NCBI GenBank assembly: GCA_022736495.1
Contig: DZCR01000008.1
Coordinates: 1 to 38,022 of the forward strand
Origin: Desulfobacca acetoxidans
Lineage (GTDB): Bacteria; Desulfobacterota; Desulfobaccia; Desulfobaccales; 0-14-0-80-60-11
Length of the DNA stretch: 38,022 bases
Direction: 5' to 3'
The position numbers and the translations under genes are program-made. Positions 7,953 through 27,402 of the stretch are shown in pieces; the first letter of the stretch is position 1; every line of letters begins with the position of its first letter. The notes under the pieces are model-generated. The model worked only from the letters and a program-made list of their open reading frames with translations. It searched no databases and was not told the DNA's origin.

Positions 7953-8675
7953 TCAATAGCCTTTGCCGTGCTTTTTGATGATGATCATGGAGAGATAGGG
8001 CAACTCCCGGCCTTTCAGGTCCCGGAGGTTTTCCACCACGGTTTCACCATCCAGGCCGCAACGGCTGATGCAGGTAGTCCGGTCCAGGAGGTCCATTGCT
8101 TCCAGGGTCTGATAGATTTCAGCAAAATGGCGATACGTTTTAAGAATAACAATATTATCAGACTTATCGATAACTTTCTTCAGCCTGGCCGCGCCCAGGG
8201 CCCCGGAGACCAGGTAAAAGGATTCCTCCCCTTCGGTGAGCGGAATGTGGGTCAGGGCCGCGGCGGCGCTGTAGGAGGTGATGCCGGGGATGGTGATGAT
8301 GCGTACTTCGGGGTGCAGGCGCTTGAGAGTCTTCAACAGATACCCGAAGGTGGAGTAGGTCAGGGGGTCGCCGAGGGTGACGAACGCCGCGTCGGAGCCT
8401 GCGCCCAGCACTTCCAGGACCCTCCGGGCGTTCTCCTCCCAGGCCTCTTGCAACACCTGGGGGTCCTTGCTCATGGGGAAAGGCAGGTGCTCGATGCCAG
8501 CGCCGTTGAGGTGACAGCGCACGATGCTCAGGGCCAGACTGTAGCTGTTTTTCGTCGAGCAGGCCGCAAAGATGTGGGGCACCCGATGGAGCACCTTGAC
8601 CGCCTTCAGGGTGATCAATTCAGGATCTCCCGGTCCCACGCCGATCCCGTATAGGGTCCCGGTTTTCGTGGTCAT
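7953..8675 (-). CDS. cbiL: Cobalt-precorrin-2 C20-methyltransferase (CbiL/CobI)
   Basis: A 240-aa tetrapyrrole methylase, the first committed methylation of the corrin branch here. The N-terminus is GTLYGIGVGPGDPELITLKAV. VTLGDPLTYSTFGYLL and ITIPGITSYSAAAA follow, both typical of CbiL. The start is ATG at 8675, overlapping the cbiA-cbiC stop by 4 bp (ATGA). An open upstream extension to 8774 is an out-of-frame shadow of cbiC and is excluded. Confidence 0.95.
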   Translation of the reverse strand: MTTKTGTLYGIGVGPGDPELITLKAVKVLHRVPHIFAACSTKNSYSLALSIVRCHLNGAGIEHLPFPMSKDPQVLQEAWEENARRVLEVLGAGSDAAFVTLGDPLTYSTFGYLLKTLKRLHPEVRIITIPGITSYSAAAALTHIPLTEGEESFYLVSGALGAARLKKVIDKSDNIVILKTYRHFAEIYQTLEAMDLLDRTTCISRCGLDGETVVENLRDLKGRELPYLSMIIIKKHGKGY

Positions 8676-13941: not shown

Positions 13942-13974
13942 AAAAAAATCCTTAAGTCCCAATGGACTTAAGGA
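13942..13974 (-). terminator. Intrinsic terminator of the cobalamin riboswitch
   Basis: On the minus strand TCCTTAAGTCC, a short ATTG loop and GGACTTAAGGA are followed by seven Ts (13948-13942). It lies between the B12 aptamer and the btuC start, where a riboswitch expression platform belongs. It should stop transcription when cobalamin is bound. Confidence 0.92.
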
Positions 13975-14040
13975 TGCACCCAGCTTCTTATCCTTAGTGA
14001 GTAAGCCGCTTGTCCAGAACGGCCTCTGGTGCCTGGGCCT

Positions 14041-14220
14041 TGGTAACGCGCTTGGCTCCAGACCTCCGGGCAGGTCTTCTGGCTCCCGGATTCACCTACT
14101 CCCTGCGCCTTCCCATCCTGCTTCAGCGGAACAGTGGCCTTGTGCAGGTTTCGTCCCCGGTTACAGCGGCGGGACCGCGACGGCTCGGCCGTCTTCCCCA
14201 TTAAACCCCGAAGGGTACCC
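14041..14220 (-). promoter_or_regulatory. Cobalamin (B12) riboswitch aptamer
   Basis: Read on the minus strand, the leader contains the conserved B12 box AGCCAGAAGACCTGCC (14084-14069), preceded by GTGAATCCGGG. Further upstream are GCCACTG, the core segment CCGCCGCTGTAACCGG and TTAATGGGGAAG. Ends GGTA and TACC can pair as P1. This is the arrangement of the AdoCbl/cobalamin riboswitch class. It controls btuC-btuD-btuF and probably the cbi genes downstream by attenuation at the 13942-13974 terminator. The rest of the 13876-14254 leader holds only the expression platform and promoter. Confidence 0.95.
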
Positions 14221-14229
14221 GAATGATTT

Positions 14230-14258
14230 ATTATATAAAGTTACCGGGGCCCTGTCAA
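14230..14258 (-). promoter_or_regulatory. Consensus sigma70 promoter of the cobalamin regulon
   Basis: On the minus strand TTGACA (14258-14253) and TATAAT (14235-14230) are separated by exactly 17 bp. Transcription would begin near 14223, just before the riboswitch P1 stem. The hdrA stop TGA (14257-14255) lies inside the -35 hexamer. Confidence 0.88.
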
Positions 14259-15916
14259 CTGCGGCGGTTTTTCTCGTCATCAGACAGGAGTTCCTTACCA
14301 TGGGCAAGGGCGTCTAACAGGCGGATGACTCGGGCCGCCACCCCGCTCCCCTGGCAGACGGTCTCGGCGATGTCCCGGGGACCGTGGCAGGTGCCCGCCA
14401 GAAAGACTCCCGATACTGTGGATTCCAGGGGATGCAGAATGGGGTGGCGCTCCTGGTAAAAACCCAGCCTATCTTTAGCCGGGGCCTGGTCCACAAAGGG
14501 CAGCGCCTCTTTCGGGGCCTCCAGCCCCACGGCCAGCACCGCCATATCCACCGCCAACTGCTGACGGACGCCCCGTTCCTGGTCCTCAAAGCAGATGACC
14601 GGACGCCCGTCTTCGTCCTCAGCGATGCGGCCCGGCAGCCCCTTGATGAAGCGCACGCCCGCGGCCCGCGCCCGCTGGTAGAGCTCTTCGAAGCCTTTGC
14701 CGGAGGTGCGGATGTCGTTGTAAAAGATGGTGACCTCGGCCTCCGGCTCATGTTCCAGGGCCAACATAGCCTCCTTGATGGACGCGGTACAGCAGTAACC
14801 CGAGCAGTACGGCAAAAACCGCCGGTCCCGGGACCCTACGCACTGGATAAAGGCCAGGCGTTTAACCGGCTCGCCCCCGGGTGTCACCAGGCTCCCCTGG
14901 GTGGGGCCGGTGGCGCAGACGATGCGCTCGAACTCCAGGTTGGTCACCACTCCAGGGATGCGGCCATAACCATATTCGCTCTTGATGCCGGGGTCAAAGG
15001 GCAGGGCCCCGGTGGCCAACACGATGGCCCCTACCGTCAGGCGGCGCTGGCTGGGATGATGGAGGAGATTAATGGCCTGGTGTTCGCAGGCCTGGACGCA
15101 CATCTGGCAGTCGATGCAATAATCTTTTTCAATGGTGGCCCTGAGCGGCACCGCCTGGGCGAAAATAATGCGGATGCATTTCCGGGGCTTGAGGCCCAGG
15201 TTCCAGCGGCTGGGCACGATTACCGGGCAGACATTGGTACAGGTCCCGCACCCGACGCATTTGCTCATATTCACGTAGCGGGGCCGGAGGGTGACTTCCA
15301 CCTCAAACCCACCGGCGCCTCCCGCAATGCGGTTGAGGGTGGCATAGGTGAGCATTTCGATGTTGGGATGGGCCGCCACCTCCACCAGTTTTGGCCCCAG
15401 GATGCAGATGGAGCAGTCCAGGGTGGGGAAGGTCTTGTCCAGTTGGGCCATGGTGCCGCCGATGGAGAGCGAGGACTCGGCCAGATAGACCTTGAAGCCT
15501 GCATTGGCCAAATCCAGGGCGGCCTGGCAGCCTCCCACGCCGCCGCCCACCACCAGCACTTCCCGAGCAACTGGGCCCCTGGAAATTTCCGGTTGCTCCG
15601 GTGTTTGCAGAGCCAGGGTCAGGGCCCCCACCGCGGACTCCAGGTCGCCGCAGGAGCGCACATCCACCACCGGCAACAGTGCTTTACCGGCCACTCCCTG
15701 GAAAAAACCGGCGTGGATTTCCGGACCGCAGGCTGCCACCAGATAAGGCTTACCCTTCGTGGATGCGAGTTTCCGTAGCTGCGCCAGACCGTCGGGGGAG
15801 CAGAGAGGTGCCGTCAGTTCGGCCTTGACCCCCAACTGCTGCAGTCGGCCCGCCAGGTCCCGGCCAGCAAAGGACAGATCGGGGCAGGCGCACAGGAGAA
15901 TTTTACGTGGGGTCAT
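14255..15916 (-). CDS. hdrA: HdrA-like flavin/iron-sulfur protein (short form)
   Basis: A 553-aa HdrA homologue. The FAD Rossmann motif is VLVVGGGVGGCQAALDLANAG (about 122-142). An HdrA cysteine segment follows (LDCSICILGPKLVEVA), then an inserted two-cluster ferredoxin (CVGCGTCTNVCPV and CIDCQMCVQACEH) and the flavin-domain signature CVGSRDRRFLPYCSGYCC. It ends after GVFLAGTCHGPRDIAET, with no C-terminal ferredoxin. The N-terminal 100 residues resemble the HdrA leading domain, but CHCG is replaced by CACP. QmoA is another short HdrA, so relatedness to it is possible. It overlaps the preceding HdrA-MvhD gene by 14 bp and is the last gene of the Hdr locus. Confidence 0.85.
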   Translation of the reverse strand: MTPRKILLCACPDLSFAGRDLAGRLQQLGVKAELTAPLCSPDGLAQLRKLASTKGKPYLVAACGPEIHAGFFQGVAGKALLPVVDVRSCGDLESAVGALTLALQTPEQPEISRGPVAREVLVVGGGVGGCQAALDLANAGFKVYLAESSLSIGGTMAQLDKTFPTLDCSICILGPKLVEVAAHPNIEMLTYATLNRIAGGAGGFEVEVTLRPRYVNMSKCVGCGTCTNVCPVIVPSRWNLGLKPRKCIRIIFAQAVPLRATIEKDYCIDCQMCVQACEHQAINLLHHPSQRRLTVGAIVLATGALPFDPGIKSEYGYGRIPGVVTNLEFERIVCATGPTQGSLVTPGGEPVKRLAFIQCVGSRDRRFLPYCSGYCCTASIKEAMLALEHEPEAEVTIFYNDIRTSGKGFEELYQRARAAGVRFIKGLPGRIAEDEDGRPVICFEDQERGVRQQLAVDMAVLAVGLEAPKEALPFVDQAPAKDRLGFYQERHPILHPLESTVSGVFLAGTCHGPRDIAETVCQGSGVAARVIRLLDALAHGKELLSDDEKNRRS

Positions 15917-18299
15917 GAGTTTCTTTAGCCAGCTTACTTACCTTTCCGGCTTTTTCCCTTTCCGCCTTTTCGCCAATTTCTTCGGCCATCGCCTGGATCA
16001 CTTTTTGAAAGGACTTGCCTTCCGTGGCGGAAATCCACTCCAGACGCAGGCGCGCCGGGTCGATACCCTGCTTGGCCAGTTTCGGTTTGAGCTTCTCGAT
16101 CCGGGCCTGAGCCCTCAGATTCCCCGTTATGTAATGGCAGTCCCCTGGGGGGTGGCAGCCCGAGACCAGCACCTGTCCCGCGCCTTTGGCAAAGGCGTGG
16201 CGGATGAACTTGGGGTGGACCCTGCCGGCGCACATGGTGCGGACGATCCTGACCGCCGGCGGGTATTGCAGCCGGGACACCCCGGCGAAATCCGCCCCGG
16301 CATAGGAACACCAGCTACAGCAGAAGGCCAGAATCTTCTCCTCGGGACCTTCCGCCAGGGCCTCGTCGATCTGGGCCAGGATCATTTCATCGGTAAAACC
16401 CCGGGCGATGACCGCCCCGCTGGGGCAGGCCCCGGCGCACACCCCACAGCCCTTGCAGGCCGCTTCAATGATCCGGGCTTTCCGGGATTTCCCTTCTCCG
16501 ACCATTTCCACGGCCTGGAACGGACATTCCTGGTAACAGCTCTCGCAGCCGATGCACTTCTCCGGGTCAACGAAGCTCACCAGGCCGTCCAAGGTGATAG
16601 TGTCGTGGGCCATAAGGGCCAGAATCTTGGCCGCGGCGCCGGAACCCTGGGTGATCGACTCGGCCAGGTCTTTGGGGCCCTGGCAGGCTCCGGCCAGATA
16701 GATGCCGTCCAGCACCGTTTCCAGGGGCCGCAGCTTGGGATGGGCTTCCATGAAAAAGCCATCGGTCCCCACCGGCAGTTTTAAGACCTCTTTGAGGGCA
16801 ACATTATCGCCCGGCCTCAGGCCCACCGCCAGCACCGCCAGATCCACCCGATCCCGGCTGGCCCACTGCCCCAGATCCTGGTCCGCCTCGATTACCACCC
16901 CGCCCGCCGCATCGGCCCGGATATCCTTAACCCGGCTCCGCATAAACACGATACCCGCCTCCCGGGCCCGGGTGTACAAATCCTCCCACTCCTGCTTGAT
17001 AGTCCTCAGATCCCGGTAATAGACGCGGATGCGGGCAGCAGGCAGCAGGGCCTGCAGTTCCAGGGCCTGCTTTAGCGCCGTGGGGCAACAGATTCGGGAG
17101 CAATACTGGTTCCCCTCTTCCTCCCGGGAACCCACGCACAGGATAAAGGCGATATCCTGGGGTTCGGCAGCCATCCCAGGCAGCAGCACCCGCCCCCCGG
17201 TGGGTCCCGAGGGGGCCAGCAGGCGTTCCAGGGCTACCGTGGTGCTCACCTGGGGCAGGGCGGCCCAGGCTTCGTAACGGCTGCCTGACGGCTCAAAGGG
17301 CTGAAATCCGGTGGCCACCACCATGGCCCCCACCTCCAGGGTGTGTTCGATCTCTCCGCAGGCCTCCAGGTCTATGGCTTGCCGGGGACAGGCCGGCACG
17401 CAGAGGCCGCAGCGGTCGCAGGCTTGCGGGTCTATTACGTAGCGAGCCGGAAAGGCCGTGGGGGACGGCAGATAGATGGCGGACCTTAAACTTAGTCCCG
17501 CCTGCTGCACATCCGGGACCTTGATCGGGCAGATCACTGCGCAGGCGCCGCAGCGGTCGCAGGCCTCCAGCACCAAAGGCCGCTTCTGGCTGACCGTCAT
17601 CCGGTAACTGCCCAGGTGGCCGCTGACTCCGGTGACCGCGCTGTCAGTCAGCACCGTGATGCCCGAATGCAGCATCACCGCGGCCATCATGGGGTTGATA
17701 AGGCTCAGAGCGCTGTCGCCCCGGGGAAAGGTTTTTGAAAGCCGGTTGGCCATGCCGCCCAGCACCGGGGAGCGCTCCACCAGGGTCACGGGGATTCCAG
17801 CGTGGGCGATGTCCAGGGCGGCCCTCAGGCCCGCCGGGCCCCCGCCGATCACCAACGCCGCCCGGGTCATGGGCACCTGGCGCTCGGCTAAGGGCGCGGC
17901 GTCCCGTACTTTGGCCAACCCCATGCGGATCAGTTCCAGGGCTTTTTCGTAAGCCGCCTCCGGTTCCCTCGTGTGAACCCAAGAGCATTGCTCCCGGATA
18001 TTGACGATTTCCAAAAGATACGGATTGACGCCGCAGTCGGCCAGCAGCCGTCGAAAAGTGGATTCATGGAGCTTGGGGGAGCAGGCCGCCACCACCAGGC
18101 GATTCAGGCCGCACTCCCGGATATCCTTGGCGATATCCCGTTGGCCCGCCTCGGAGCAGGAGTACAGATGATCCCGGGACACCGTTACCCCCGGCAAATC
18201 GCGCGCGGCCGCCGCCAGGGCCTCAGGGCTGATCACCCCGGCGATATTGTGGCCGCAGTGGCAGATATAAAGACCGATGCGGGGGGGGGCGTTTATCAT
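15903..18299 (-). CDS. hdrA-mvhD: HdrA-MvhD fusion protein
   Basis: About 798 aa. The order is: leading domain with CHCGHNI; FAD motif VIGGGPAGLRAALDIAHAG; inserted ferredoxin (CDRCGACAVICP, CDRCGLCVPACP); flavin-domain CVGSREEEGNQYCSRICC; C-terminal ferredoxin (CIGCESCYQECP, CKGCGVCAGACP); then an MvhD domain (FCCSWCSYAGADFAG, MCAGRVHPKFI, GCHPPGDCHY). MvhD passes electrons between a partner enzyme and HdrA. The same HdrA-MvhD order is known in QmoB of sulfate reducers. I chose ATG 18299 over an upstream TTG (18317). The C-terminal tail is Lys/Glu-rich and coincides with a polypurine repeat. Confidence 0.9.
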   Translation of the reverse strand: MINAPPRIGLYICHCGHNIAGVISPEALAAAARDLPGVTVSRDHLYSCSEAGQRDIAKDIRECGLNRLVVAACSPKLHESTFRRLLADCGVNPYLLEIVNIREQCSWVHTREPEAAYEKALELIRMGLAKVRDAAPLAERQVPMTRAALVIGGGPAGLRAALDIAHAGIPVTLVERSPVLGGMANRLSKTFPRGDSALSLINPMMAAVMLHSGITVLTDSAVTGVSGHLGSYRMTVSQKRPLVLEACDRCGACAVICPIKVPDVQQAGLSLRSAIYLPSPTAFPARYVIDPQACDRCGLCVPACPRQAIDLEACGEIEHTLEVGAMVVATGFQPFEPSGSRYEAWAALPQVSTTVALERLLAPSGPTGGRVLLPGMAAEPQDIAFILCVGSREEEGNQYCSRICCPTALKQALELQALLPAARIRVYYRDLRTIKQEWEDLYTRAREAGIVFMRSRVKDIRADAAGGVVIEADQDLGQWASRDRVDLAVLAVGLRPGDNVALKEVLKLPVGTDGFFMEAHPKLRPLETVLDGIYLAGACQGPKDLAESITQGSGAAAKILALMAHDTITLDGLVSFVDPEKCIGCESCYQECPFQAVEMVGEGKSRKARIIEAACKGCGVCAGACPSGAVIARGFTDEMILAQIDEALAEGPEEKILAFCCSWCSYAGADFAGVSRLQYPPAVRIVRTMCAGRVHPKFIRHAFAKGAGQVLVSGCHPPGDCHYITGNLRAQARIEKLKPKLAKQGIDPARLRLEWISATEGKSFQKVIQAMAEEIGEKAEREKAGKVSKLAKETHDPT

Positions 18300-18335
18300 G
18301 ATAATTGAGCCCTGCAACCATAATTCGTGAAATAA

Positions 18336-18376
18336 GGGGGGCGAAAAGGCGAAAAGGCGAAAGGGCGAAAGGGGAA
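18336..18376. repeat. Polypurine GGCGAAAAGG tract, left of the S23 gene
   Basis: Repeated GGCGAAAAGGCGAAAAGG-type sequence on the plus strand between the HdrA-MvhD gene and the S23 gene. An inverted counterpart lies at about 18777-18805. Confidence 0.7.
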
Positions 18377-18396
18377 AAGAAAGAAATTTTTCATTT

Positions 18397-18750
18397 CTAA
18401 GTTGCTCTCAAGGATTTTATCTGATTGGCCAAGTAACGGCTCAGTTCTAACGCTGCCTGGCGCAAAGCCTCATATTGAAGCGGTTTCAGGTAGCCCAACT
18501 CGACTGCCACGGATAAAAGGCTTCTGACCTCGCCGGTGGAGCCTTTGGCAAAATTCAGAAAGTTGACGTATTCTTTGCGAGAGGCCCGCTCATACCCTTC
18601 AGCGATGTTGGTAGGAATAGAAATGGCCGCTCGCCGCAACTGATCCCGCAGAGCAAAATCCCGGCACAGCTCGCCCTCTCTGCTGATGAGATAGACTTGC
18701 TTGACCATCTCCATGCCCTTCTGCCAGACCAGGAGATCCTCAAATCCCAT
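18397..18750 (-). CDS. Four-helix-bundle protein (S23 / 23S rRNA intervening-sequence protein family)
   Basis: A 117-aa protein starting MGFEDLLVWQKGMEMVKQVY, with SIPTNIAEGYERASRKEYVNFL and GSTGEVRSLL, the hallmark motifs of the S23/IVP four-helix-bundle family. These proteins are found in rRNA intervening sequences and beside unrelated genes; their role is unknown. Here there is no rRNA nearby, and the gene interrupts the Hdr locus. I use ATG 18750; the upstream 19 codons from a TTG only translate a polypurine repeat. It looks like a recently acquired passenger. Confidence 0.85.
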   Translation of the reverse strand: MGFEDLLVWQKGMEMVKQVYLISREGELCRDFALRDQLRRAAISIPTNIAEGYERASRKEYVNFLNFAKGSTGEVRSLLSVAVELGYLKPLQYEALRQAALELSRYLANQIKSLRAT

Positions 18751-18776
18751 TACTTTTTTAGGCTTTTCCGTCACTT

Positions 18777-18836
18777 CCCTTTTCGCCTTTTCCCCTTTTC
18801 GCCCCAATCTTCTAACCCTTTTTCCCTTTTCCCCCT
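18777..18836. repeat. Polypyrimidine counterpart tract, right of the S23 gene
   Basis: CCCTTTTCGCCTTTTCCCC and related units on the plus strand, the reverse complement of the tract at 18336-18376. The two frame the S23 gene as an inverted pair. Confidence 0.65.
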
Positions 18837-19677
18837 AAATCTTTACCAGCTTTTCCACCGCCGTTGCCCAGGCCTGGGAAAACTCCCCAGGTTCGGCCAC
18901 CACTTCCTCCCGGACCAGGGTGATGGCTGCGTCATCGCAGATATTGACGCAGACCCCGCAGTAGGCGCAGTTCTCGACCTTTAGAAAAACCCGCTCGCCC
19001 TCCCGGACAATGGCCTTCACCGGGCACAACTCAATGCACTTCACGCAGTCCGCGGGGCACTTGTGGTCGTCGATCACCAGGCGGCCCCGGAATTGGGGGT
19101 TGACCAGGATGGCCTCAAACTCGCATACCGTCAGGCACTGAGTGCACCTTAAGCACAAGTCGGGCGTCGGCATGGTTTGGCCTGCGGTTTCATCCAGGAC
19201 GATGGCCTGGCGGGGGCAGGCTGCCAGGCACTTGTGGCAGTGTTTGGGACATTCCGCAAGCACGTTGGCCACCAGCTTTAGTTGCTGGCGGCACCAGTGT
19301 TCCTCCCCTTCGGGCTGGGGCGGGCACGGCAATGGGCAGCGACTCTTGTCCATGTCGATCTTGGGGAGAAACGGCGCCAGGCCCTGGTGGTCCGCCATGA
19401 TAGTCTTGACCTCGCCGTTGTAGCTCAGGGTCACTGCGGCCACCGGGCAGAAATGGGCGCAGATTTCGCACATCAGGCAAAGGCGGGGGTCGATGGTAAT
19501 GTCCAGGTCAGAATCCCCGGGAATGATCCGCACCGCCTCCCGGGGACATACGGAGGCACAGATGTCGCACTTGAGGCACAGCCCCTTGTCCAGGCGCAGC
19601 TCCACCGTATCGACGAAGAGCTGCAGCGTCAATTTTAGGTAGGTATCGGTTTCGCGTTTGATCACCCGGGGCTGCAT
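18835..19677 (-). CDS. FwdF-like polyferredoxin
   Basis: A 280-aa soluble protein with at least six [4Fe-4S] motifs: C34-C44 (CLKCDICASVCP), C67-C77 (CLMCEICAHFCP), C143-C154 (CPKHCHKCLAACP), C175-C185 (CLRCTQCLTVCE), C207-C218 (CPADCVKCIELCP) and C237-C247 (CAYCGVCVNICD). Extra cysteines at 114, 118 and 129 may help bind another. Serial dicluster repeats are seen in FwdF, the polyferredoxin wiring formylmethanofuran dehydrogenase to Hdr in methanogens. With FwdA/B-like genes upstream, a similar electron-wire role is likely. The start is ATG at 19677, with a weak ribosome site. Confidence 0.8.
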   Translation of the reverse strand: MQPRVIKRETDTYLKLTLQLFVDTVELRLDKGLCLKCDICASVCPREAVRIIPGDSDLDITIDPRLCLMCEICAHFCPVAAVTLSYNGEVKTIMADHQGLAPFLPKIDMDKSRCPLPCPPQPEGEEHWCRQQLKLVANVLAECPKHCHKCLAACPRQAIVLDETAGQTMPTPDLCLRCTQCLTVCEFEAILVNPQFRGRLVIDDHKCPADCVKCIELCPVKAIVREGERVFLKVENCAYCGVCVNICDDAAITLVREEVVAEPGEFSQAWATAVEKLVKI

Positions 19678-19760
19678 AAAAGTTTTCAGATATTAATCAG
19701 TCGCCTACCTTCGGTACAGATCACCGCACCGGTCTCAATCATTGCTTTACCCTTTTCGCC
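19678..19760. other. Gap upstream of the polyferredoxin gene
   Basis: The gap contains CCCTTTTCGCCCT at about 19750, another unit resembling the polypurine tracts. No promoter or terminator can be supported. Confidence 0.4.
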
Positions 19761-20180
19761 CTATCTCTTCTGCCCTTCCAGCTTCCGGTGATACTCCCGG
19801 GCTTTAAACTTCAATTGCCGCCGGAGCAGGTTGAGTTTCACATCCGGGAACTGTATCAGGAGCAGTTCGTATTTGTCGCAGGGCTCCAGGTCCGGACACT
19901 CGTAGCAGTGCTCCAGCCCCCGTTTTATGGCGCACAGGCGAATGGGGCAGTCTTTCAAGCCCCGCCCCTCTTTGCAGCCGGGGCAGTCGGTGTGGGCCAG
20001 GAACCACTCCAGGCCTTTTCTAAACTCCGGCAGGTTGAAACCATCCGGCCCGGGAAAACAGTGGACCCAGACATTGGCCCGCACCTGGTCCAGGTAGCTC
20101 TTCAACTGGGACACCGTTTCCAACAAACCGGGATTGCCCAGTTGGCAATCATCACACAGACCGCAATAACTCTCTCTCAT
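19761..20180 (-). CDS. DUF3795-type cysteine-rich protein
   Basis: A 139-aa protein with SYCGLCDDCQLGNPG at the N-terminus, then CPGCKEGRG, CPIRLCAIKRGLEHCYECPDLEPCDKYELL. This spacing of cysteines matches the DUF3795 family, which is common in anaerobes and probably binds a metal or Fe-S cluster; its function is unknown. The start is ATG at 20180, preceded by AGGAGAAAGG. It lies between the HdrA tandem fusion and the polyferredoxin in the same direction, so a maturation or accessory role in the complex is possible but unproven. Confidence 0.75.
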   Translation of the reverse strand: MRESYCGLCDDCQLGNPGLLETVSQLKSYLDQVRANVWVHCFPGPDGFNLPEFRKGLEWFLAHTDCPGCKEGRGLKDCPIRLCAIKRGLEHCYECPDLEPCDKYELLLIQFPDVKLNLLRRQLKFKAREYHRKLEGQKR

Positions 20181-20265
20181 GACCTTTCTCCTGCAAGAGC
20201 TTTCCTGTCAAATGTTAGCCATCAGCTCTGATAATAAATTGGGGTTTATTCACCCCCCACCCCAA

Positions 20266-20288
20266 CCCTCCCCCATCAAGGGGGAGGG
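20266..20288. repeat. Perfect G/C hairpin repeat in the gap after hdrA-hdrA
   Basis: Arms CCCTCCCCC (20266-20274) and GGGGGAGGG (20280-20288) around ATCAA. It belongs to the same family as 11838-11860 (loop TTGAT). The surrounding 241-bp gap (20181-20421) also has a CCTTTCCCCTCTTCGC tract near 20341. I see no gene there. Confidence 0.8.
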
Positions 20289-20421
20289 AAAAAGGCAGGC
20301 GTTTCTATGGGATGATACCCGCGTCAGGGGGCCAACTTGGCCTTTCCCCTCTTCGCTTTGCGCCCTTCCTTGTTGGGGCTGGTTAACCTTATTTTACTAT
20401 GCTTCAGCATTTTGCCGACCA

Positions 20422-23400
20422 TTAATCGTATTCTACCCTCAGACCTTCCCCAATCGCTGCCTCGATCTGGGCGGCCAACTCCGGTTCGGCGCCGCGGCTC
20501 ATCGTAATGGCCGCTGCGGGACACTCCGCCGCGCAGACCCCACACCCCCGGCAAACTTCGAGGTGCACTTCAGGCTTCCCATCGGCAACTTGCACCGCTC
20601 CGAAAGGGCAGAGCTGGACGCAGGCCAGACAACGACGGCATTTCTCCGGGGTGATCATGGCTACCACCTCGCCGGCCAGCAACTCTGTCTGGAACAGAAT
20701 CCCCGCGGCCCGGACCGCGGCGGCCTGGGCCTGGGCCACGCTTTCCCCCAAGCTCTTGGGATAGTGGGCCACCCCGCAGAGAAATACCCCCTCAGTGGCT
20801 GCATCCACCGGTCTCAGTTTCTGGTGGGCCTCCTGGAACCACCCGGACAGGGTTTGAGAAACCCGCAGTTGCCGGGCCACCTCCCCGCTTCCGGCCGCCG
20901 GTTCCACGCCAGCGGCCAGGACCACCAGATCCGCAGCCAAAGGCAGGTCCTGGCCCAAAAGCTCATCCGCTACCCAGACCGTCAGGGGCCGCCGTTTGGC
21001 GGCAGCTAGCCGGGGGGGGCGCGCCGCTTCGAAGGGAATAAACCGCACCCCCTTCTCCTTGGCCTTGACGTAGTAACTTTCCCGGAAACCATAGGCCCGG
21101 ATGTCCCGATAAAGGACGGTAATCTCCATCAAGGGGTAGCGCTCCTTGAGCAGCAGGGCGTTCTTGAGGGCCTGGGAGCAACACACGCGGCTGCAATCGG
21201 GGTGCTCCGGCTCCCGTGACCCCACGCACTGGATCATTACCACCTGCCGCACCTTGGGCAGGTCCGGGTCGCTAAAATTAATCCTCTCTTCCAACTGCCG
21301 CTGCGTGAGCACCCGTGGGTCTTCCCCGTAGAGAAAGCGCCCCTGGGGTTGAAACTCCCGGCCGCCGGTGGCCACGACGATGACGCCGTGGGAAAATTCC
21401 CGCTCCTGGTAGCCGTTCATGGTGAAGCGGCGCACCGTGCTTTTAAACTGCCCCACGTGTCCCCTGACCTGGGTCAATTCGGTCTGGATATGGACCTCGA
21501 TGTTGGGGTGGCTATAAACCATTGCCTGCATCTCATGGAGAAATTCCTGGGGATCCGGGCCTTCCAGGGTAAAAAACAAATTCCGGGCCAGGCCTCCCAG
21601 GGCGTTTTCCCGCTCCACCAGGTAGGTGTGAAAGCCCTGGTCCGCCAGGGTCAGCGCCGCGCTCATGCCGGCCACCCCGCCCCCCAGCACCAGGGCCCGG
21701 GGCGTCACCGGGATGTTCTGGGGTTGAATGGGCGTAAGCCTCGCCGCCCGGCCCACCGCCATGGCGACCAAATCCGCGGCCTTGGCCAGGGCCGCCTCCG
21801 GGTCCTCTTGATGGACCCAGGCGCACTGCTCCCGGATATTGGCCAGGGCGAAGTAGCCCGGATTCAGTCCCGCTCCCGCCAGGACTTCCCGGAAGACCCC
21901 TTCGTGCGTCCGGGGACTGCACGCGGCCACCACCACCCGATTGAGGCCCAGGGTCTTGATGGTCTCCCGCATCCGGCCGGTGGATTCCACCGCGCAGGAA
22001 AACAGGTTGTCCTCCACATGGACAACTCCGGGCAGTCCCGCCACCGCGGTAGCCAATTTGGCCAAGTCAATGGTCTTGGCAATATTGGTGCCGCAATGAC
22101 AGAGAAAAATTCCGATCCGGGGAGGAAAATCCGTCACTCGGCTGGGAACCGGCTTCGCCTTGGGAGCCCAACTCCGGTGGGCAGTGGTTAACAGGCGTGA
22201 CACCACCGCAGCCGCCGCGCTTGCTGTGGTCACGGATTCGGGGATATCCATGGGTTCCCGGGCGGCGCCGCATACCAACACTCCCGGCCGGGTGGTGCTC
22301 ACCGGGAGTAACGGCGAGGTGGCAACGAAGCCATGCTCATTTACTTCTAGCCCCAGGCGCCGGGCGGAGGTTGGCATGTGCAGGCCTGGCCTCAGCCCTA
22401 TGGCTAAGACCGCCATATCGAAGGGCTGCTCCTGGGGCCGGCCGTGGGCGTCAGTAAAGCGCACCAGGACGCCGCCAGCAGCCTGGGGGGTGACGGCGGT
22501 GACCCGGGAGCGCACCAGACTGACGCCATGCTCCCGGGCCTGTTCCAGGTAACCTTCATACCCCTTGCCCTGGGCCCGGATATCCATGTAGAAAATGGTG
22601 GAGGCTAGCCCCGGGGCGCTGATCTCCCGGGCCACCAGGGCCTCCTTGAGACTGGCCATGCAACAGAGGGCGGAGCAATAGGTGGCGCCGGCCTGGGGGT
22701 CCCGGGAGCCCACGCACTGGATAAAGGCTAACCGCCCGGGCGTGGTCTGATCCGACGGCCGCACCAGTTTGCCGCCGTGGGGACCGGTGGCGCTGAGCAG
22801 CCGCTCGAACTCCAGGCTGGTGACCACGTCGGGATGGCCAGAGCCCGGAAACTCCTTGGCCGGCGCCGGAGCTGCGCCCAGGGCCACAATGATAGCTCCC
22901 ACGGACTCCGTCCATTCCGCCGCGACGTCTTTCAGATTAATGGCCCCGGCCTGGCAGACCTTGACGCAGGCCCCGCACTTCTTCCCCTGAAAAACCCGGC
23001 AGGCCTCCGGGTCAATATAGGCCGCCTGGGGAATGGCTTGAGGAAAGGGCACGTGAATGGCCCTGGTCTGGCTGAGCCCGAGATTATAGGGGTCCGGGAG
23101 CCTGCCGGGGCAGACCCGGGTGCAGTCGCCGCAGCCGGAGCACCGGCTCACATCTACGAACCGGGGCTGGCGGCTCAAGAGGACCTGAAAATCCCCGGCC
23201 TGGCCCTGGACTTGTAGAACCTGGGTGGAAGTCTCGATGTTGATGAGGGGGTGACGGGCGATCTCCAGCATCTTGGGAGACAAGATACACATGGCGCAAT
23301 CGTTGGTGGGAAAGGTCTTGTCCAACTGCGCCATGAGACCGCCGATGGTGGGGCCGGCTTCCGTCAGGGTCACAGGCAGCCCCGCAGCCGCTACCTCCAA

Positions 23401-23484
23401 GGCCGCCTGCATACCGGCTATACCGCCGCCCACCACCAGAACTCGAGGGTGGGCCACCCGATCTAAGGGTCGGATAGAGGCCAT
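20422..23484 (-). CDS. hdrA-hdrA: Tandem HdrA-HdrA fusion protein
   Basis: About 1020 aa. Copy 1 (residues about 12-440) has FAD motif VLVVGGGIAGMQAALEVAAAG, CAMCILSPKMLEIA, inserted ferredoxin (CSGCGDCTRVCPG and CGACVKVCQ) and CVGSRDPQAGATYCSALCC, but no CHCG leading domain. Copy 2 (about 460-1020) has the leading domain (IGIFLCHCGTNIAK), FAD motif VLGGGVAGMSAAL and CVGSREPEHPDCSRVCC, with no inserted ferredoxin. It ends in two clusters (CRRCLACVQLCP, CRGCGVCAAECP). The halves are complementary. Double HdrA proteins are known, for example in the BamE class, but the family here is unassigned. ATG 23484 is chosen; an upstream TTG (23508) is possible. Confidence 0.9.
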   Translation of the reverse strand: MASIRPLDRVAHPRVLVVGGGIAGMQAALEVAAAGLPVTLTEAGPTIGGLMAQLDKTFPTNDCAMCILSPKMLEIARHPLINIETSTQVLQVQGQAGDFQVLLSRQPRFVDVSRCSGCGDCTRVCPGRLPDPYNLGLSQTRAIHVPFPQAIPQAAYIDPEACRVFQGKKCGACVKVCQAGAINLKDVAAEWTESVGAIIVALGAAPAPAKEFPGSGHPDVVTSLEFERLLSATGPHGGKLVRPSDQTTPGRLAFIQCVGSRDPQAGATYCSALCCMASLKEALVAREISAPGLASTIFYMDIRAQGKGYEGYLEQAREHGVSLVRSRVTAVTPQAAGGVLVRFTDAHGRPQEQPFDMAVLAIGLRPGLHMPTSARRLGLEVNEHGFVATSPLLPVSTTRPGVLVCGAAREPMDIPESVTTASAAAAVVSRLLTTAHRSWAPKAKPVPSRVTDFPPRIGIFLCHCGTNIAKTIDLAKLATAVAGLPGVVHVEDNLFSCAVESTGRMRETIKTLGLNRVVVAACSPRTHEGVFREVLAGAGLNPGYFALANIREQCAWVHQEDPEAALAKAADLVAMAVGRAARLTPIQPQNIPVTPRALVLGGGVAGMSAALTLADQGFHTYLVERENALGGLARNLFFTLEGPDPQEFLHEMQAMVYSHPNIEVHIQTELTQVRGHVGQFKSTVRRFTMNGYQEREFSHGVIVVATGGREFQPQGRFLYGEDPRVLTQRQLEERINFSDPDLPKVRQVVMIQCVGSREPEHPDCSRVCCSQALKNALLLKERYPLMEITVLYRDIRAYGFRESYYVKAKEKGVRFIPFEAARPPRLAAAKRRPLTVWVADELLGQDLPLAADLVVLAAGVEPAAGSGEVARQLRVSQTLSGWFQEAHQKLRPVDAATEGVFLCGVAHYPKSLGESVAQAQAAAVRAAGILFQTELLAGEVVAMITPEKCRRCLACVQLCPFGAVQVADGKPEVHLEVCRGCGVCAAECPAAAITMSRGAEPELAAQIEAAIGEGLRVEYD

Positions 23485-23508
23485 CGCACGCGCCTGCTCC
23501 TGAGACAA

Positions 23509-23610
23509 TCGCTATTTCCCTGTCTGGCCGGACCTGGGTGCCCGCCCTTTCTTCGGACCGACCCTTGGTAGGACGGTCCAGATATAATCATTTGAAAAAA
23601 AATTCCGGCC
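23509..23610. other. hdrC to hdrA-hdrA gap with imperfect hairpin
   Basis: A stem at 23555-23579 (GGACCGACC / GGACGGTCC, one mismatch) lies 5' of the tandem HdrA gene, preceded on the minus strand by a run of eight Ts (within 23595-23605). The T-run precedes the stem, so it is not an intrinsic terminator for hdrC. The purpose is not evident. Confidence 0.45.
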
Positions 23611-24078
23611 TTAATCCACATCACCAATTATCCGGGCCAGAGTGTCTTTAACCTCCCAGTCTTCATCTCCGGACAAAAGTTCGCCGATGAGGCGCTGCCT
23701 GAGTTCGGCGATCAGACGCTCTCCCTGCTCCAGTTGCGCCACCCGGGCGGAGCTGATCTTGCCGTCCCGGACCGCCAGGTTGCGCAATCCCTGAATAATG
23801 TCTAAGAAACGCACGTCCTGGGGGCACTGGAAGGAACACCGGGCGCAGCGGGCACAGTACCAGAGAGCCGGGGACCTCAGCAAGGCCTCGCGCTGGCCAT
23901 AAAGCACCTGGCGGATGATCTGGCTGGGGCTGAAGCCGGGGGTCAGCTCGCTCACCGGACAAGTCGCGGTGCAAACCCCGCAGGAAAAACAGCGCAAGAG
24001 GTGCTGACAGCCGGGTTCGGCGGCCACCTCGTCTTTAAACCGGGGGTCCAGATCCTGAAGGTGTACGGTTTCGCTCAT
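23611..24078 (-). CDS. hdrC: Heterodisulfide reductase subunit C-like protein
   Basis: A 155-aa protein with two classical [4Fe-4S] motifs: C30-C33-C36-C40 (CFSCGVCTATCP) and C75-C78-C81-C85 (CARCARCSFQCP). TPGFSPSQIIRQVLYGQ lies between them, as in HdrC. HdrC normally relays electrons from HdrA to the catalytic subunit HdrB. No HdrB (CCG-domain) gene is in this window. The start is ATG at 24078, with AAGG seven bases upstream. The next gene downstream is the HdrA tandem fusion. Confidence 0.88.
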   Translation of the reverse strand: MSETVHLQDLDPRFKDEVAAEPGCQHLLRCFSCGVCTATCPVSELTPGFSPSQIIRQVLYGQREALLRSPALWYCARCARCSFQCPQDVRFLDIIQGLRNLAVRDGKISSARVAQLEQGERLIAELRQRLIGELLSGDEDWEVKDTLARIIGDVD

Positions 24079-24145
24079 AGGGAACCTTCAGCTTTCAGTG
24101 TTCCAGCTACAGGGGCGAACCTTGGTGTCCGCCCTTATTTTGACG

Positions 24146-24589
24146 TCAAAACAACGTAATCGCCTCGGTGGGACAATACTCCGCACATTTGCTGCACTTC
24201 TCCGCCGCCTGGACCAGCCGGGTGCAGAGTTCCTGGTGCACCACCACCGCACTGCCGTTGATCATGCGAAAGACCACCTTATCCTGGGGCCGGGGACCCT
24301 TGCCCAGGCGGGCCGCGTCGCAGTTCCCCAAATGGAACTCACACATGGTCACACAGATGCCGCAGCCATTGCATTTTTCCGGGTCGATGCGCATCCCCGG
24401 GGCCACGGCCTCTAAAAGTTCATGCAGGGCCTCGATGAAGCCGGCATAATCGGGCTCGTGGAGGACCGGACAGTCCTCCGGGGCCGACTCCCGATTCACC
24501 AGCAACCCGGCGAACTCGGCACAGCTTAACCCGCACTGCCGGCAATCGCTGCCAGGCAAAAATTCCAGGATCTCTTCAATCGTGGCCAT
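24146..24589 (-). CDS. Small ferredoxin with N-terminal Fes-type four-cysteine region
   Basis: A 147-aa protein. The N-terminus IEEILEFLPGSDCRQCGLSCAEFAGLL, with a further Cys in DCPVL, resembles the four-Cys Fes domain of corrinoid Fe-S and CODH-associated proteins. A ferredoxin part follows: CNGCGICVTMCEF and a variant second site (C-x9-CSKCAEYCPTEAI). It probably carries two or three [4Fe-4S] clusters. Placed between the FwdA-like gene and hdrC, it is a likely electron carrier of the same complex, comparable in position to FwdG. The stop codon lies in the palindrome TTTTGACGTCAAAA (24138-24151). Confidence 0.7.
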   Translation of the reverse strand: MATIEEILEFLPGSDCRQCGLSCAEFAGLLVNRESAPEDCPVLHEPDYAGFIEALHELLEAVAPGMRIDPEKCNGCGICVTMCEFHLGNCDAARLGKGPRPQDKVVFRMINGSAVVVHQELCTRLVQAAEKCSKCAEYCPTEAITLF

Positions 24590-24634
24590 AGCTTGCGCTT
24601 TTATTAACCGAAAACTGAAAACGGAAAACCGTCT

Positions 24635-26008
24635 TTAAACCCCCACCCAGGGTCCGCCCAGCCCCTCGGCGACCCAGAGATTTTCCCAGCGGCAACTCTG
24701 AAACTGGCTGATTTCCCTCAGAATTGTCGTGGCCTCAGCGTCGGTTTGGCGGTAATAGGTGGCCCTGGCCACGTCCGGCTTCACCAGGCTGAAGTTGTCC
24801 ACCACCACTTCCCCCGCCTTGAGCAAAGTGCGACAGCAGCCCAGGTATTGCTGCCACTGGCCGGAGGGGGCATACGTCGGCACGTCATAGATAGCCACGT
24901 CGGCCCGGGCGCCGATGCTGAGCCGGCCGCGATCCTCCAGACCCAGCAGCCGGGCGGGCAGGGTGCGGGTGGCCCAGATCCACTCGGACAGCGCGTAGCG
25001 CCGGGCCCCCAAGTCATCATTCCAGTCCCGCCGGCGGGCCGCGTGGTCCCAGAGCCAGGAGAACAGCCGGGGGTATTCGGCCACCGGCGCCTGCAGCGCA
25101 TTTGCCCCGGAAAAAGCCACCGAGGAGCCCTGGCAGCACAAGACCAGGGCCAGGGCCCTCCGGCCGGCCGCCTCATTCACCGGCGGATTGAGGTCCAGGG
25201 GGTTAAACCAGCCCAGGTCTATCCGGACCGGCGGCGGAGCTGGCCCCGTCACACGGCTGGGGAGCATGAGTCCGAGATCCCCCGTGGCGCCTGCCTCCAA
25301 CTGGGCCAGAGCGGCCTCCACCAATTTATCATCCGTCAAGGCCGGGCCCAGGGCGGCCAGATGAAAGGCCTGGGGGTCCGGCAGACCGATCCGCAGCACC
25401 TCGGGGGAGGTTTCCAGGGCCAGGGGCAGCCAGGTTAGGCGGGCCAGGTCAGCCAGAATCGCCAGGGTCTTTTCCGTCTCGATGGCGCGGTGGGCATAAA
25501 AATCCTGCCGATACCGGACAAAAGGCTCCACCACCCGGAAATTAAGGGAACGGGTCGCCCCCAGCAAAAACTGGAGGGTTTCCCCCACTTCCGTCAAACG
25601 CTCCGGGGAGCCCAGGTACAAATCCAACTCCCGTAGGTTGAGGACCAAAGAGGCGGAGGTGTCCACCACCGGCAAAGCCGCTAACTGGCGCTGGACGTAG
25701 CCCGCGGTCCAGGCCGTCAAAAACGGTTCGTGGACGTGAGTATATCCCAGAAGGGCATAGCTCTCCCCCACCTTCGCCAGGGACGGCGCTCCGTTGCGCA
25801 AGCGCAAGAAGTCCAGGCCATAGGTAGCCACCTGACCCCGGAGTTCAATGCCCGCGGGCGTCACCACCTGACCCCGGGCCTCGATCACCCGGTCCACTTC
25901 GAGAAGCGGCGGCGCCAGGCGTCCGGCCTCGATGAACAGGTCGCCCACCTCTCCATCCCAGTCACAGGCTGGATCATAGAGGCGTCCCCCGGCAATTTTA
26001 AGGCGCAT
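24635..26008 (-). CDS. FwdA/FmdA-like amidohydrolase-fold protein lacking metal ligands
   Basis: About 457 aa. Against formylmethanofuran dehydrogenase subunit A (about 570 aa, from memory) it keeps the fold landmarks YALLGYTHVHEP (84-95), FLLGATRSLNFRVVEP (148-162), YPRLFSWLWD and YALSEWIWATRTLPARLLGLEDRGRLSIGARADVAIYD. The HxH metal motif after the MPGG-like turn is RGQ (57-59), the IKIVNP lysine is Arg158, and the later His and Asp ligand positions are also replaced. It is about 110 residues shorter. A structural, non-hydrolytic role is inferred. ATG 26008 is preferred over TTG 26026. The gap before it (26009-26124) holds G/C-rich repeat remnants. Confidence 0.75.
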   Translation of the reverse strand: MRLKIAGGRLYDPACDWDGEVGDLFIEAGRLAPPLLEVDRVIEARGQVVTPAGIELRGQVATYGLDFLRLRNGAPSLAKVGESYALLGYTHVHEPFLTAWTAGYVQRQLAALPVVDTSASLVLNLRELDLYLGSPERLTEVGETLQFLLGATRSLNFRVVEPFVRYRQDFYAHRAIETEKTLAILADLARLTWLPLALETSPEVLRIGLPDPQAFHLAALGPALTDDKLVEAALAQLEAGATGDLGLMLPSRVTGPAPPPVRIDLGWFNPLDLNPPVNEAAGRRALALVLCCQGSSVAFSGANALQAPVAEYPRLFSWLWDHAARRRDWNDDLGARRYALSEWIWATRTLPARLLGLEDRGRLSIGARADVAIYDVPTYAPSGQWQQYLGCCRTLLKAGEVVVDNFSLVKPDVARATYYRQTDAEATTILREISQFQSCRWENLWVAEGLGGPWVGV

Positions 26009-26124
26009 GGCTACATTCCAAACCAAAAGTCCGGCATAATGAATTCATAAGATCGTTATAGGGCGGCCCCTGGCCGCCATTCCAGGCACCCGAAACGGCA
26101 AAAAGACTCTCCTACCGGGGGTCA

Positions 26125-27402
26125 TTACGCTCCGATCAACCGCTGCAGGTCCGTAACCACCTGGTGGTCCGCAGGCAACTTCGACGACGCCACCGGCTTG
26201 AGGACCAAGGGCAACCCGTCCATCCGATAGGCCACCTCAGCGGTCTCAATGCCCGTCAGCGCCGACGGTAAAATGACCGCCGCCTGGCCGGTGGTCCGGT
26301 TGGCAAAGGGGCTTACGGCCACAATGGGCACCTGGCGCCGCTGCAAATCCTCCACCTGTTCCGCCGGCAAAAACCACAATAAATCCGCACCGATGACCAG
26401 CACCGCGTCCACCTCCCGGAACTCCACCGGGGTCAAGTGGGTCGCCACTGCCATCGGCCCAAAATCGGGCGCCCCGGCCTGCCCCACCTCATTGAGCAGC
26501 AGGTGGTAGAGCCCGCTGGAATTGAAGTCGCCGGACAGGGGGAACAGGAAAAACCTTTTCTCTTGATTGAGGAAGGCCACCAGGCGGGCCAGCCCCTCGA
26601 AGAGTTCCCAGGCCGGGCCGTAACTGACTCCCCGGCCGCAAAAGATGACGCCGCAGGTGGCCTTGGCAAGAAACTGAGCCAGCCGCCTGGTTCCGCGGAT
26701 CGGGGGACTGAGGATCGGCTCCCCGGTCAGGGTCGCGGCAATGCCCTGGAGCAGGTCCAGTTCCTGGCCTGGTTGAATCTTGATGAACAGGGGGCAGAAC
26801 CTGGTCAACTCGGTCTTATAAATATCCACCGCCGCCACCTGCCGGTCTTCCACGCCCCGTTCGGTAAAGCGGCCCCGGGCAAAAACGGCATGGCGCACCA
26901 CGTGCCGGGGAGCGGAGTGGATGGGATTGGCGCCCCAAAACAGCACTGCGTCGGCCTCATCCCGGATGACTTCCAGGGGGGCCCAGGTGACGCCATGCCG
27001 CTGAATGCTCTGGTAATAGGGGGCCTTGAAGGCTAAATCCGCCGGTTCCAACCGGGCCCGCAGGCTCCGGGCCAGTTTGAGCGCGGCCTCCTGAGCCCAG
27101 GAGCCGGAGTTGGTCAGCCCATAGATCAGCGGTCGCTTGGCCCGGCTGAGCAACCGGGCCGCCTCGGCCAAGGCGGCTTCGTAGGACACCGTTTGCCGAC
27201 GCCCCTGATGACGGACCTGGGGATCTTGAAGCCGGTGACGGTCTTTTTTCGGATGGAATTTCTTGGCGTGGAAGAAGCGGCTCACGCCCCAGAGGCAGAC
27301 GTTGCCGACCTCAACGATCCGGTCCCCTTCCAGGGTGACATCCAGGTCATCGCAGAGACAGCCACAGCCGGGGCAGATGATGGATTCGTGCCTGACTTCC
27401 AC
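26125..27402 (-). CDS. FwdB/FmdB-like molybdopterin-fold protein lacking the metal-ligand cysteine
   Basis: A 425-aa protein of the formylmethanofuran dehydrogenase subunit B family. The N-terminal [4Fe-4S] motif is kept (C10, C13, C17, C36; CPGCGCLCDDLDV). LFWGANPIHSAPRHVVRH (155-171) and the C-terminal ALTGIETAEVAYRMDGLPLVLKP are family signatures. The position of the W/Mo-ligating Cys or Sec (VCHG in archaeal proteins, by memory) falls at about residues 124-128 (AFKAP), with no Cys. It starts at GTG 27402 with TTAGGTG nine bases upstream, and is the first gene of the Hdr/Fwd-like run. No convincing promoter is seen in 27403-27480. Confidence 0.78.
   Translation of the reverse strand: MEVRHESIICPGCGCLCDDLDVTLEGDRIVEVGNVCLWGVSRFFHAKKFHPKKDRHRLQDPQVRHQGRRQTVSYEAALAEAARLLSRAKRPLIYGLTNSGSWAQEAALKLARSLRARLEPADLAFKAPYYQSIQRHGVTWAPLEVIRDEADAVLFWGANPIHSAPRHVVRHAVFARGRFTERGVEDRQVAAVDIYKTELTRFCPLFIKIQPGQELDLLQGIAATLTGEPILSPPIRGTRRLAQFLAKATCGVIFCGRGVSYGPAWELFEGLARLVAFLNQEKRFFLFPLSGDFNSSGLYHLLLNEVGQAGAPDFGPMAVATHLTPVEFREVDAVLVIGADLLWFLPAEQVEDLQRRQVPIVAVSPFANRTTGQAAVILPSALTGIETAEVAYRMDGLPLVLKPVASSKLPADHQVVTDLQRLIGA

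Follow-up and report, generated by a model that had tools for sequence, protein, structure and literature searches.

In a 38,022-base stretch of Desulfobacca acetoxidans DNA (contig DZCR01000008.1; 62.6% GC), referred to below as the window, a run of ten minus-strand genes at 14255-27402 may encode a soluble HdrA-based electron-transfer complex of sulfate reducers, with multiple flavins and multiple clusters and with a dead formylmethanofuran dehydrogenase (Fwd) core as scaffold, a reading to which we assign, from the sequences, a probability of about 0.5. According to family scans, the genes follow each other in the order pseudo-FwdB, pseudo-FwdA, a small Fe-S protein (smFeS), an HdrC-like protein, a double HdrA (dHdrA), a DUF3795 protein, a FwdF-like polyferredoxin (polyFd), an S23/IVP protein, an HdrA-MvhD fusion and a short HdrA (sHdrA), that is, nine redox or linked genes and one probable passenger, S23/IVP. 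An earlier note on this DNA had named nine of these proteins in a 13-kb co-directional run, and open minus-strand frames with family matches were found in place for all nine; however, its gene list left the S23/IVP gene unmentioned. It also missed the apparent loss of Fwd active-site residues, the lack of an HdrB, hydrogenase, NAD or F420 subunit among the ten genes and the make-up of the system from two modules.

The Fwd-like core and its active-site positions

Pseudo-FwdB (26125-27402; 425 amino acids, aa) has the FwdB fold, matching TIGR03129 with an E value of 4e-85 and 286 bits, below the cut-off of 328, and the structure 5t5i_B with an E value of 3e-61. In the latter alignment its F125 stands at the place of Cys118, which we take to ligate W in the FwdB of 5t5i. 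An alignment of 117 FwdB-like rows (the query and 116 of the best 120 of 443 matches, those shorter than 400 aa being dropped) contained no Cys at this position, which was occupied by F in 104 rows, L in 6, Y in 5 and S in 1, with one gap. The Cys residues for one [4Fe-4S] cluster were kept, C10, C13 and C36 in 117/117 rows and C17 in 116/117. Cys118 of FwdB is termed catalytic in a passage of a published study (PMC7325909). When genome contigs were scanned with the FwdB-like alignment, 94 stretches were confirmed and 80 loci were kept; the Cys118 equivalent was absent from all 23 loci of the window group (L001-L021, L024 and L032) and was retained in 31 of the 80.

Pseudo-FwdA (24635-26026; the start is likely at 26008, giving 457 aa) has an amidohydrolase fold and matches TIGR03121 with an E value of 2e-29, far under the cut-off. 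Its AlphaFold model, with a predicted local distance difference test score (pLDDT) of 90.6, gave FhcA (6s6y) and FwdA (5t5i_A) as best matches. The metal ligands of FwdA comprise an H-x-H motif, a Lys, an Asp and a further His, and the ligand columns were taken from locus L126. At the H-x-H, Lys and Asp positions the window protein carries R, Q, R and A; H222 is kept. Over 110 rows R63 and R164 were invariant, A308 was found in 108/110 and H222 in 110/110. Pseudo-FwdA also lacks a further His stretch that is present in L126. H-x-H, Lys, H-x-x-H and Asp are all present in the FwdA proteins of L115 and L119, yet these proteins too lack the further His stretch, and the FwdB of both loci has lost its Cys. 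This fits a stepwise loss, first in FwdB and then in FwdA, if the FwdB tree is so read.

The Fwd core of FwdB and FwdA therefore looks disarmed, with active-site residues gone and the proteins maintained, and because these residues have been lost, the term Fwd-like denotes a resemblance of scaffold. Ratios of nonsynonymous to synonymous substitution rates (dN/dS), determined against the close relative G001, amounted to 0.19 for FwdB and 0.27 for FwdA; other genes of the system gave 0.12-0.21, and 0.27 was obtained for a truncated HdrA-MvhD pair. The dHdrA of L177 and the sHdrA of L002 were left out, since in these cases paralogues had been picked and the orthologue lay off the stretch. The ratios indicate that the FwdB- and FwdA-like proteins are under purifying selection and are not decaying.

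A FwdB tree of 95 rows (four fragments left out; midpoint root for drawing only; some long branches) placed pseudo-FwdB within a group of 38 rows (99/95) that is distinct from 22 Fwd/Fhc-type rows. A further separate set comprised 35 rows from archaea and bacteria, of which 15 had a CdhA-like gene in the stretch. NuoG and QrcB appeared as weak matches in the family scan. The similarity of fold and sequence might be taken to mean that the window encodes a genuine, active formylmethanofuran dehydrogenase or an Fhc-type formyltransferase/hydrolase. We rejected this extremely improbable alternative, as FwdB has lost Cys118 and FwdA its H-x-H, Lys and Asp, FwdB branches apart from the Fwd/Fhc group in the tree and the partner proteins were not found in relatives: FwdC was above its cut-off in 0/28 carrier genomes (control, 2/14) and Ftr was present in 0/12 (control positive in two methanogens), in line with the setting without methanofuran enzymes that the earlier note had described. 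Weak FwdC matches occurred in 25 of the 28 carriers, for the most part as portions of long frames (about 700-1500 aa). In G096 (C86:6585-6920) and G061 (C47:5562-5966), which are carriers of a FwdB-smFeS-FwdA type and not of the window type, frames of 248 and 259 aa gave FwdC matches of 1e-15 and 1e-12, respectively, under the cut-off.

Arsenite oxidase binds its pterin metal cofactor without a Cys ligand, and the FwdB-like subunit might in the same way keep such a cofactor and catalyze a new reaction, with the Hdr part feeding in electrons. The AlphaFold model of pseudo-FwdB (pLDDT 78.7) does retain the FwdB fold, with 5t5i_B as best match at a template modelling (TM) score of 0.89, and the pocket-region motifs RLEPxDLxFxAPYY, WGANPxHSxPRH and ERGxEDR are strongly conserved in FwdB-like proteins, perhaps beyond the needs of a pure spacer. 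However, the pocket of the model is not judgeable because pLDDT drops below 50 at residues 14-16, 46-54 and 160-184, no FwdD-type (molybdopterin-binding, PF01568) protein was recognised among the ten genes, the carrier genomes not having been searched for FwdD, and FwdC is missing above cut-off as described. We consider a retained pterin cofactor unlikely.

Cofactors of the Hdr proteins and polyferredoxin

FwdB and FwdA are co-inherited with three HdrA proteins that carry four modules for flavin adenine dinucleotide (FAD), with a [2Fe-2S] MvhD domain, with HdrC and with Fe-S proteins including polyFd. The smFeS protein (24146-24589), the small ferredoxin of the earlier note, combines a PF04060 four-Cys motif with Fer4; its 13 Cys residues are sufficient for about three [4Fe-4S] clusters. 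The HdrC-like protein (23611-24078; 155 aa; two [4Fe-4S]) matches TIGR03290 with an E value of 5e-21, under the cut-off, and all nine of its Cys were found in 17/17 rows. It aligns to positions 4-97 of the 360 of the qmoC model only (58.5 bits; cut-off 300), and a QmoC-type membrane subunit was not recognised by the family scan among the ten genes.

All three HdrA proteins were recognised by NF040770 (HdrA2) with scores under its cut-off. In dHdrA (20422-23508; 1028 aa; two FAD modules; 939 bits over three stretches), alignment to 8rvu_a shows that the C-terminal ferredoxin domain is present in the second copy but the inserted one is not, and 30 of 33 Cys were kept over 17 rows. The HdrA-MvhD fusion (15903-18317; 804 aa; 922 bits) carries one FAD module and an MvhD/FlpD domain (PF02662, E 9e-47), and matches the structures 5odc_A (E 4e-170) and 5odc_D (E 2e-38). 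The FAD protein sHdrA (14255-15916; 553 aa; 516 bits; 8rvv_A, E 9e-126) is devoid of a C-terminal ferredoxin domain and would hold about four [4Fe-4S]. The FwdF-like polyFd (18835-19677; NF042909, E 9e-26, under the cut-off) also matches 9sfi_T and 5t5i_F, and its 27 Cys, enough for six to seven [4Fe-4S], were found in 20/20 rows. The Cys-rich DUF3795 protein (19761-20180; PF12675, E 1e-11), which accompanies the first module in Desulfobaccales-type loci, has 11 Cys in 9/9 rows. These row counts include the same genome twice in the cases of L002/L178, L010/L113 and L008/L130.

By our Cys assignment, FwdB would bind 1 [4Fe-4S], smFeS 3, HdrC 2, dHdrA 7, polyFd 6-7, HdrA-MvhD 6 and sHdrA 4, giving a predicted total of about 29-30 [4Fe-4S] and one [2Fe-2S], the latter in HdrA-MvhD. 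This total exceeds the at least 18 [4Fe-4S] motifs counted in the earlier note, whose four HdrA-type flavin domains were recovered: four GxGxxG motifs stand at the starts of FAD domains, and a fifth, at residue 314 of dHdrA, does not. The motif KTFPTxDCxxCILxPK of solved HdrA structures is kept in sHdrA and in the first copy of dHdrA and is gone from HdrA-MvhD and from the second copy of dHdrA, a difference which suggests that the HdrA flavins do different jobs. Many HdrA relatives in several carrier genomes are listed with a single internal TGA, which may encode selenocysteine; none occurs in the window frames.

Within the ten genes, the family scan detected no HdrB (CCG) family, which was not searched for elsewhere in the genomes, no MvhA, MvhG or other hydrogenase beyond the MvhD domain, and no separate NAD- or F420-binding subunit. 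Since neither these nor a QmoC-type subunit was recognised, electrons are probably exchanged via ferredoxin and a protein partner. We propose that all parts would assemble into one complex, in which the dead Fwd core would retain a scaffold role and a relay through its single [4Fe-4S], and would wire smFeS and polyFd to the flavins of HdrA, in a manner resembling that of FwdF in methanogens. One or more of these flavins might split or join electrons, with a pool of low-potential ferredoxin on one side and a partner of higher potential on the other; this partner could be reached through HdrC or MvhD, and the process would serve sulfate respiration. The fuller version of this proposal, a new bioenergetic complex for which sulfate-reducing Desulfobacterota stripped a CO2-reducing core of methanogen type of both its active sites and now use it as the scaffold of a four-flavin, roughly 30-cluster bifurcation or confurcation machine linking ferredoxin to sulfate reduction, is put forward tentatively, as an idea more likely wrong than right in its entirety.

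Two modules, their linkage and the boundaries of the run

Comparison of loci revealed that the system consists of two separable modules, FwdBA-smFeS-HdrC-dHdrA(-DUF3795) and polyFd-HdrA/MvhD-sHdrA. Of the 16 Desulfobaccales-type loci (L001-L016), 12 show the order FwdB-FwdA-smFeS-HdrC-dHdrA-DUF3795-polyFd-HdrA/MvhD to the extent that their stretches cover it. The run ends at DUF3795 in L005, L010 and L014, as also in L111, L112 and L113, and at HdrC in L012. In L017, L019, L020 (Desulfacinum hydrothermale), L024, L032 and L124 the modules stand in reverse, polyFd-HdrA/MvhD-sHdrA-FwdB-FwdA-smFeS-HdrC-dHdrA, again as far as the stretches reach. The Hdr-MvhD-Fwd-like gene set is therefore kept together across genomes of Desulfobacterota and so withstood the first of the refutations named in the earlier note, a gene set not conserved together in other genomes. 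In seven loci other than the window (e.g., L004:11311-11865 and L016:7784-8323) a gene for a cyclophilin-type peptidyl-prolyl isomerase, taken as a passenger, is located between FwdB and FwdA.

Co-occurrence was studied with a sample of 297 genomes from the phylum to which D. hydrothermale (G011) belongs. FwdB matches were obtained in 57 genomes at 1e-3 and were better than 1e-20 in 30; the matches in the remaining 27, being weaker, were regarded as other molybdopterin enzymes. Because G191, G217 and G261 retain the Cys and belong to other clades, they were excluded, and 27 genomes counted as pseudo-FwdB carriers, including G023 and G179, where matches are partial and the Cys position is unreadable. 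At 1e-30, polyFd was present in 22 of the 297 genomes, namely in 21/27 carriers versus 1/270 others (G198), with a Fisher p-value of 8e-26 that is inflated by shared ancestry. As a probe, HdrC was uninformative, matching 241/297 genomes at 1e-12.

In G223, G120, G002 and G175 the second module lies elsewhere in the genome, unlinked to the first. Such cases could mean that the modules are two independent electron-transfer systems that are neighbours by chance in some genomes, and the window itself offers a possible seam: intergenic gaps in the run measure 27-116 bp, the last two genes overlap by 14 bp, and the exceptional gap of 241 bp after dHdrA contains a weak match to a promoter (9/12; 20418-20391) as well as a 5-pair hairpin resembling a terminator (20256-20241). 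However, the strong phylum-wide co-occurrence extends to genomes in which the modules are unlinked, so that the pairing of FwdB with polyFd is more than synteny, and some other lineages have them joined the opposite way round. Two chance neighbours are, in our estimation, a distinctly unlikely explanation. The region holds five promoter-like sites, four weak ones (9/12) inside the run and one of 12/12, compared to 2.9 expected by chance. The run forms one gene block, as implied by the earlier note, but with respect to separate promoters and terminators the sites in the 241-bp gap qualify that view: because of them, transcription may break between the two modules instead of yielding a single transcript of the whole run.

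One end of the block abuts a divergent radical-SAM gene at 27558 (plus strand). The other is marked by a sigma-70-like promoter with a 12/12 match (14230-14258, minus strand) that opens the next unit, outside the system, followed by a cobalamin riboswitch (14052-14237, minus strand; RF00174, 100.7 bits, E 3e-24). This consensus promoter, the riboswitch and a 12-pair terminator-like hairpin together occupy 13948-14258 (minus strand) ahead of FecCD, ABC and binding-protein genes, and the unit looks like a regulated B12-uptake unit. Farther on, within a run of cobalamin genes, a CbiA/CobB-type amidotransferase is fused to CbiC, a precorrin-8X methylmutase (8672-10753, minus strand). Inside the system, the S23/IVP gene (18397-18807; four-helix protein; PF05635, E 1e-33) is inserted between polyFd and HdrA-MvhD; elsewhere it was found at this junction only in two close relatives, G001 (L002/L178) and G200 (L177), and it is probably a passenger and not a member of the system.

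Related loci, known systems and metabolic setting

Some relatives lie next to genes for a divergent CdhAB-like enzyme, with which the pseudo-Fwd proteins might exchange electrons in a system linked to CO dehydrogenase. In L115 and L117, FwdA is followed by genes of the CdhA-like and CdhB-like types, and in each of the six genomes of this clade there are two or three long matches to CdhA-like proteins. However, 22 of 28 carriers lack any CdhA-like protein; these comprise every one of the 19 genomes of the window type (HdrC-dHdrA-linked), and nine of the 22 show short ferredoxin-domain matches only. The link was thus rejected for the window, and we regard it as highly improbable.

The loci concerned, L115, L117, L118, L119 and L120 (G050, G118, G086, G221 and G243) together with L116 (G173), are relatives whose FwdB lacks the Cys, and their six genomes are those with the long CdhA-like matches; in L118, unlike L115 and L117, the roughly 4.9 kb beyond FwdA contain no CdhA-like or CdhB-like gene. 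The interval between sHdrA and smFeS of L115 (7427-11501) contains genes of the reverse-transcriptase type and others, which on visual inspection resemble those of a retron or defence system. FwdB, FwdD-like and smFeS genes accompany CdhA-like and CdhB-like genes in L026, L030 and L127, and L026 and L127 add genes of chelatase, ParA/CooC and CdhC-like type (the CdhC-like protein of L127 has 313 aa). Eight Archaeoglobi loci (L045, L048, L049, L069, L073, L075, L076 and L079) show smFeS-FwdB-CdhA-like. Together with L129 and L128/L074, these loci represent a separate bacterial and archaeal cluster that combines varying subsets of CdhA/B/C-like, AAA and VWA chelatase-type, ParA/CooC-type, FwdB, FwdD-like and smFeS genes. 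The metal site of the CdhA-like protein may differ from that of CO dehydrogenase, because G-S (L115) or G-P (L127) replaces the C-C of 8riu. From these arrangements we infer that smFeS and FwdB could form an adaptor serving more than one enzyme system.

Among known systems, the Methanospirillum Hdr-Fdh-Fmd supercomplex (7bkb) and the Hdr/Fwd/polyferredoxin entries 9sw6 and 9sfi share with the window HdrA, an MvhD-type chain, the FwdB and FwdA folds and a FwdF-type polyferredoxin. In contrast, the ten genes of the window include no HdrB, hydrogenase, Fdh, FwdC or FwdD, the FwdB and FwdA active sites appear lost, MvhD is fused to HdrA and there are four HdrA FAD modules, two of them in one chain. 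Fhc of methylotrophs (6s6y) likewise combines a FwdB relative, which has lost its tungstopterin, with a FwdA-type subunit, FhcA, which retains its metal site and is the top fold match of our FwdA-like model. The window differs in that its FwdA has lost H-x-H, Lys and Asp, its FwdB keeps the [4Fe-4S] Cys residues, and neither Ftr nor FwdC was found in its relatives. QmoABC of sulfate reducers pairs a short HdrA with an HdrA-MvhD, as the window does, but the membrane subunit QmoC is missing from the ten genes. In G223 a separate 422-aa HdrA-type frame adjoins aprA, so that a Qmo-like unit probably exists beside the window-type system. MetVF/HdrABC-MvhD, FlxABCD-HdrABC and the class II benzoyl-CoA reductase Bam place HdrA and MvhD modules on different enzymes in anaerobic bacteria; to our knowledge none has FwdA, FwdB or FwdF relatives, and no Met, Flx or Bam family was found by the scan among the ten genes. 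Molybdopterin-oxidoreductase folds have been reused for electron transfer or structure in complex I NuoG and in QrcB, which work with quinone and have different partners. No published description of the gene set was found in the open PubMed Central (PMC) literature, a coverage outside which most subscription journals fall; the nearest statement, on a bacterial fwdABCD-ftr cluster in actinobacteria from Hakuba (PMC7325909), concerns something else.

Several observations weigh against a scaffolded HdrA complex of sulfate reducers. The FwdB Cys has been lost elsewhere too and not only in the window group, since 26 of the 57 other loci are without it. Six of the 27 carriers (G007, G023, G052, G061, G088 and G125) lack polyFd, and in G007 the first module is present with HdrA matches (best 4e-78) that are other HdrA frames and not HdrA-MvhD. 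The Cys residues of the inserted ferredoxin are lacking in 6/21 HdrA-MvhD rows, no substrate-reducing site is visible in the proteins of the run, and the promoter-like site and hairpin after dHdrA have already been mentioned. As to metabolism, aprA was above cut-off in 21 of 28 carrier genomes; the other seven have partial (G173, G010) or weak (G243, G118, G153, G096, G061) matches. Within the phylum sample, aprA was above cut-off in 13/13 window-type carriers, compared to 117/297 genomes overall (Fisher p-value 4e-6), a link that is confounded by shared ancestry, the carriers belonging to few lineages, and that describes a setting and does not prove a role. CdhC/ACS showed no clear excess (12/13 carriers versus 201/297, p 0.07), and a link to acetyl-CoA synthase, for which this value is not convincing, was rejected.

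With these reservations, many relatives of pseudo-FwdA and pseudo-FwdB carry the label formylmethanofuran dehydrogenase subunit A or B, which could mislead pathway reconstruction, and the system would present a case in which a formylmethanofuran dehydrogenase has lost active-site residues while its proteins stay under selection. Debate continues on how acetate-oxidising sulfate reducers reconcile ferredoxin of very low potential with the mild potentials at which sulfate is reduced. A soluble hub with four HdrA flavin modules, conserved in such sulfate reducers, would be a concrete candidate for balancing these potentials.

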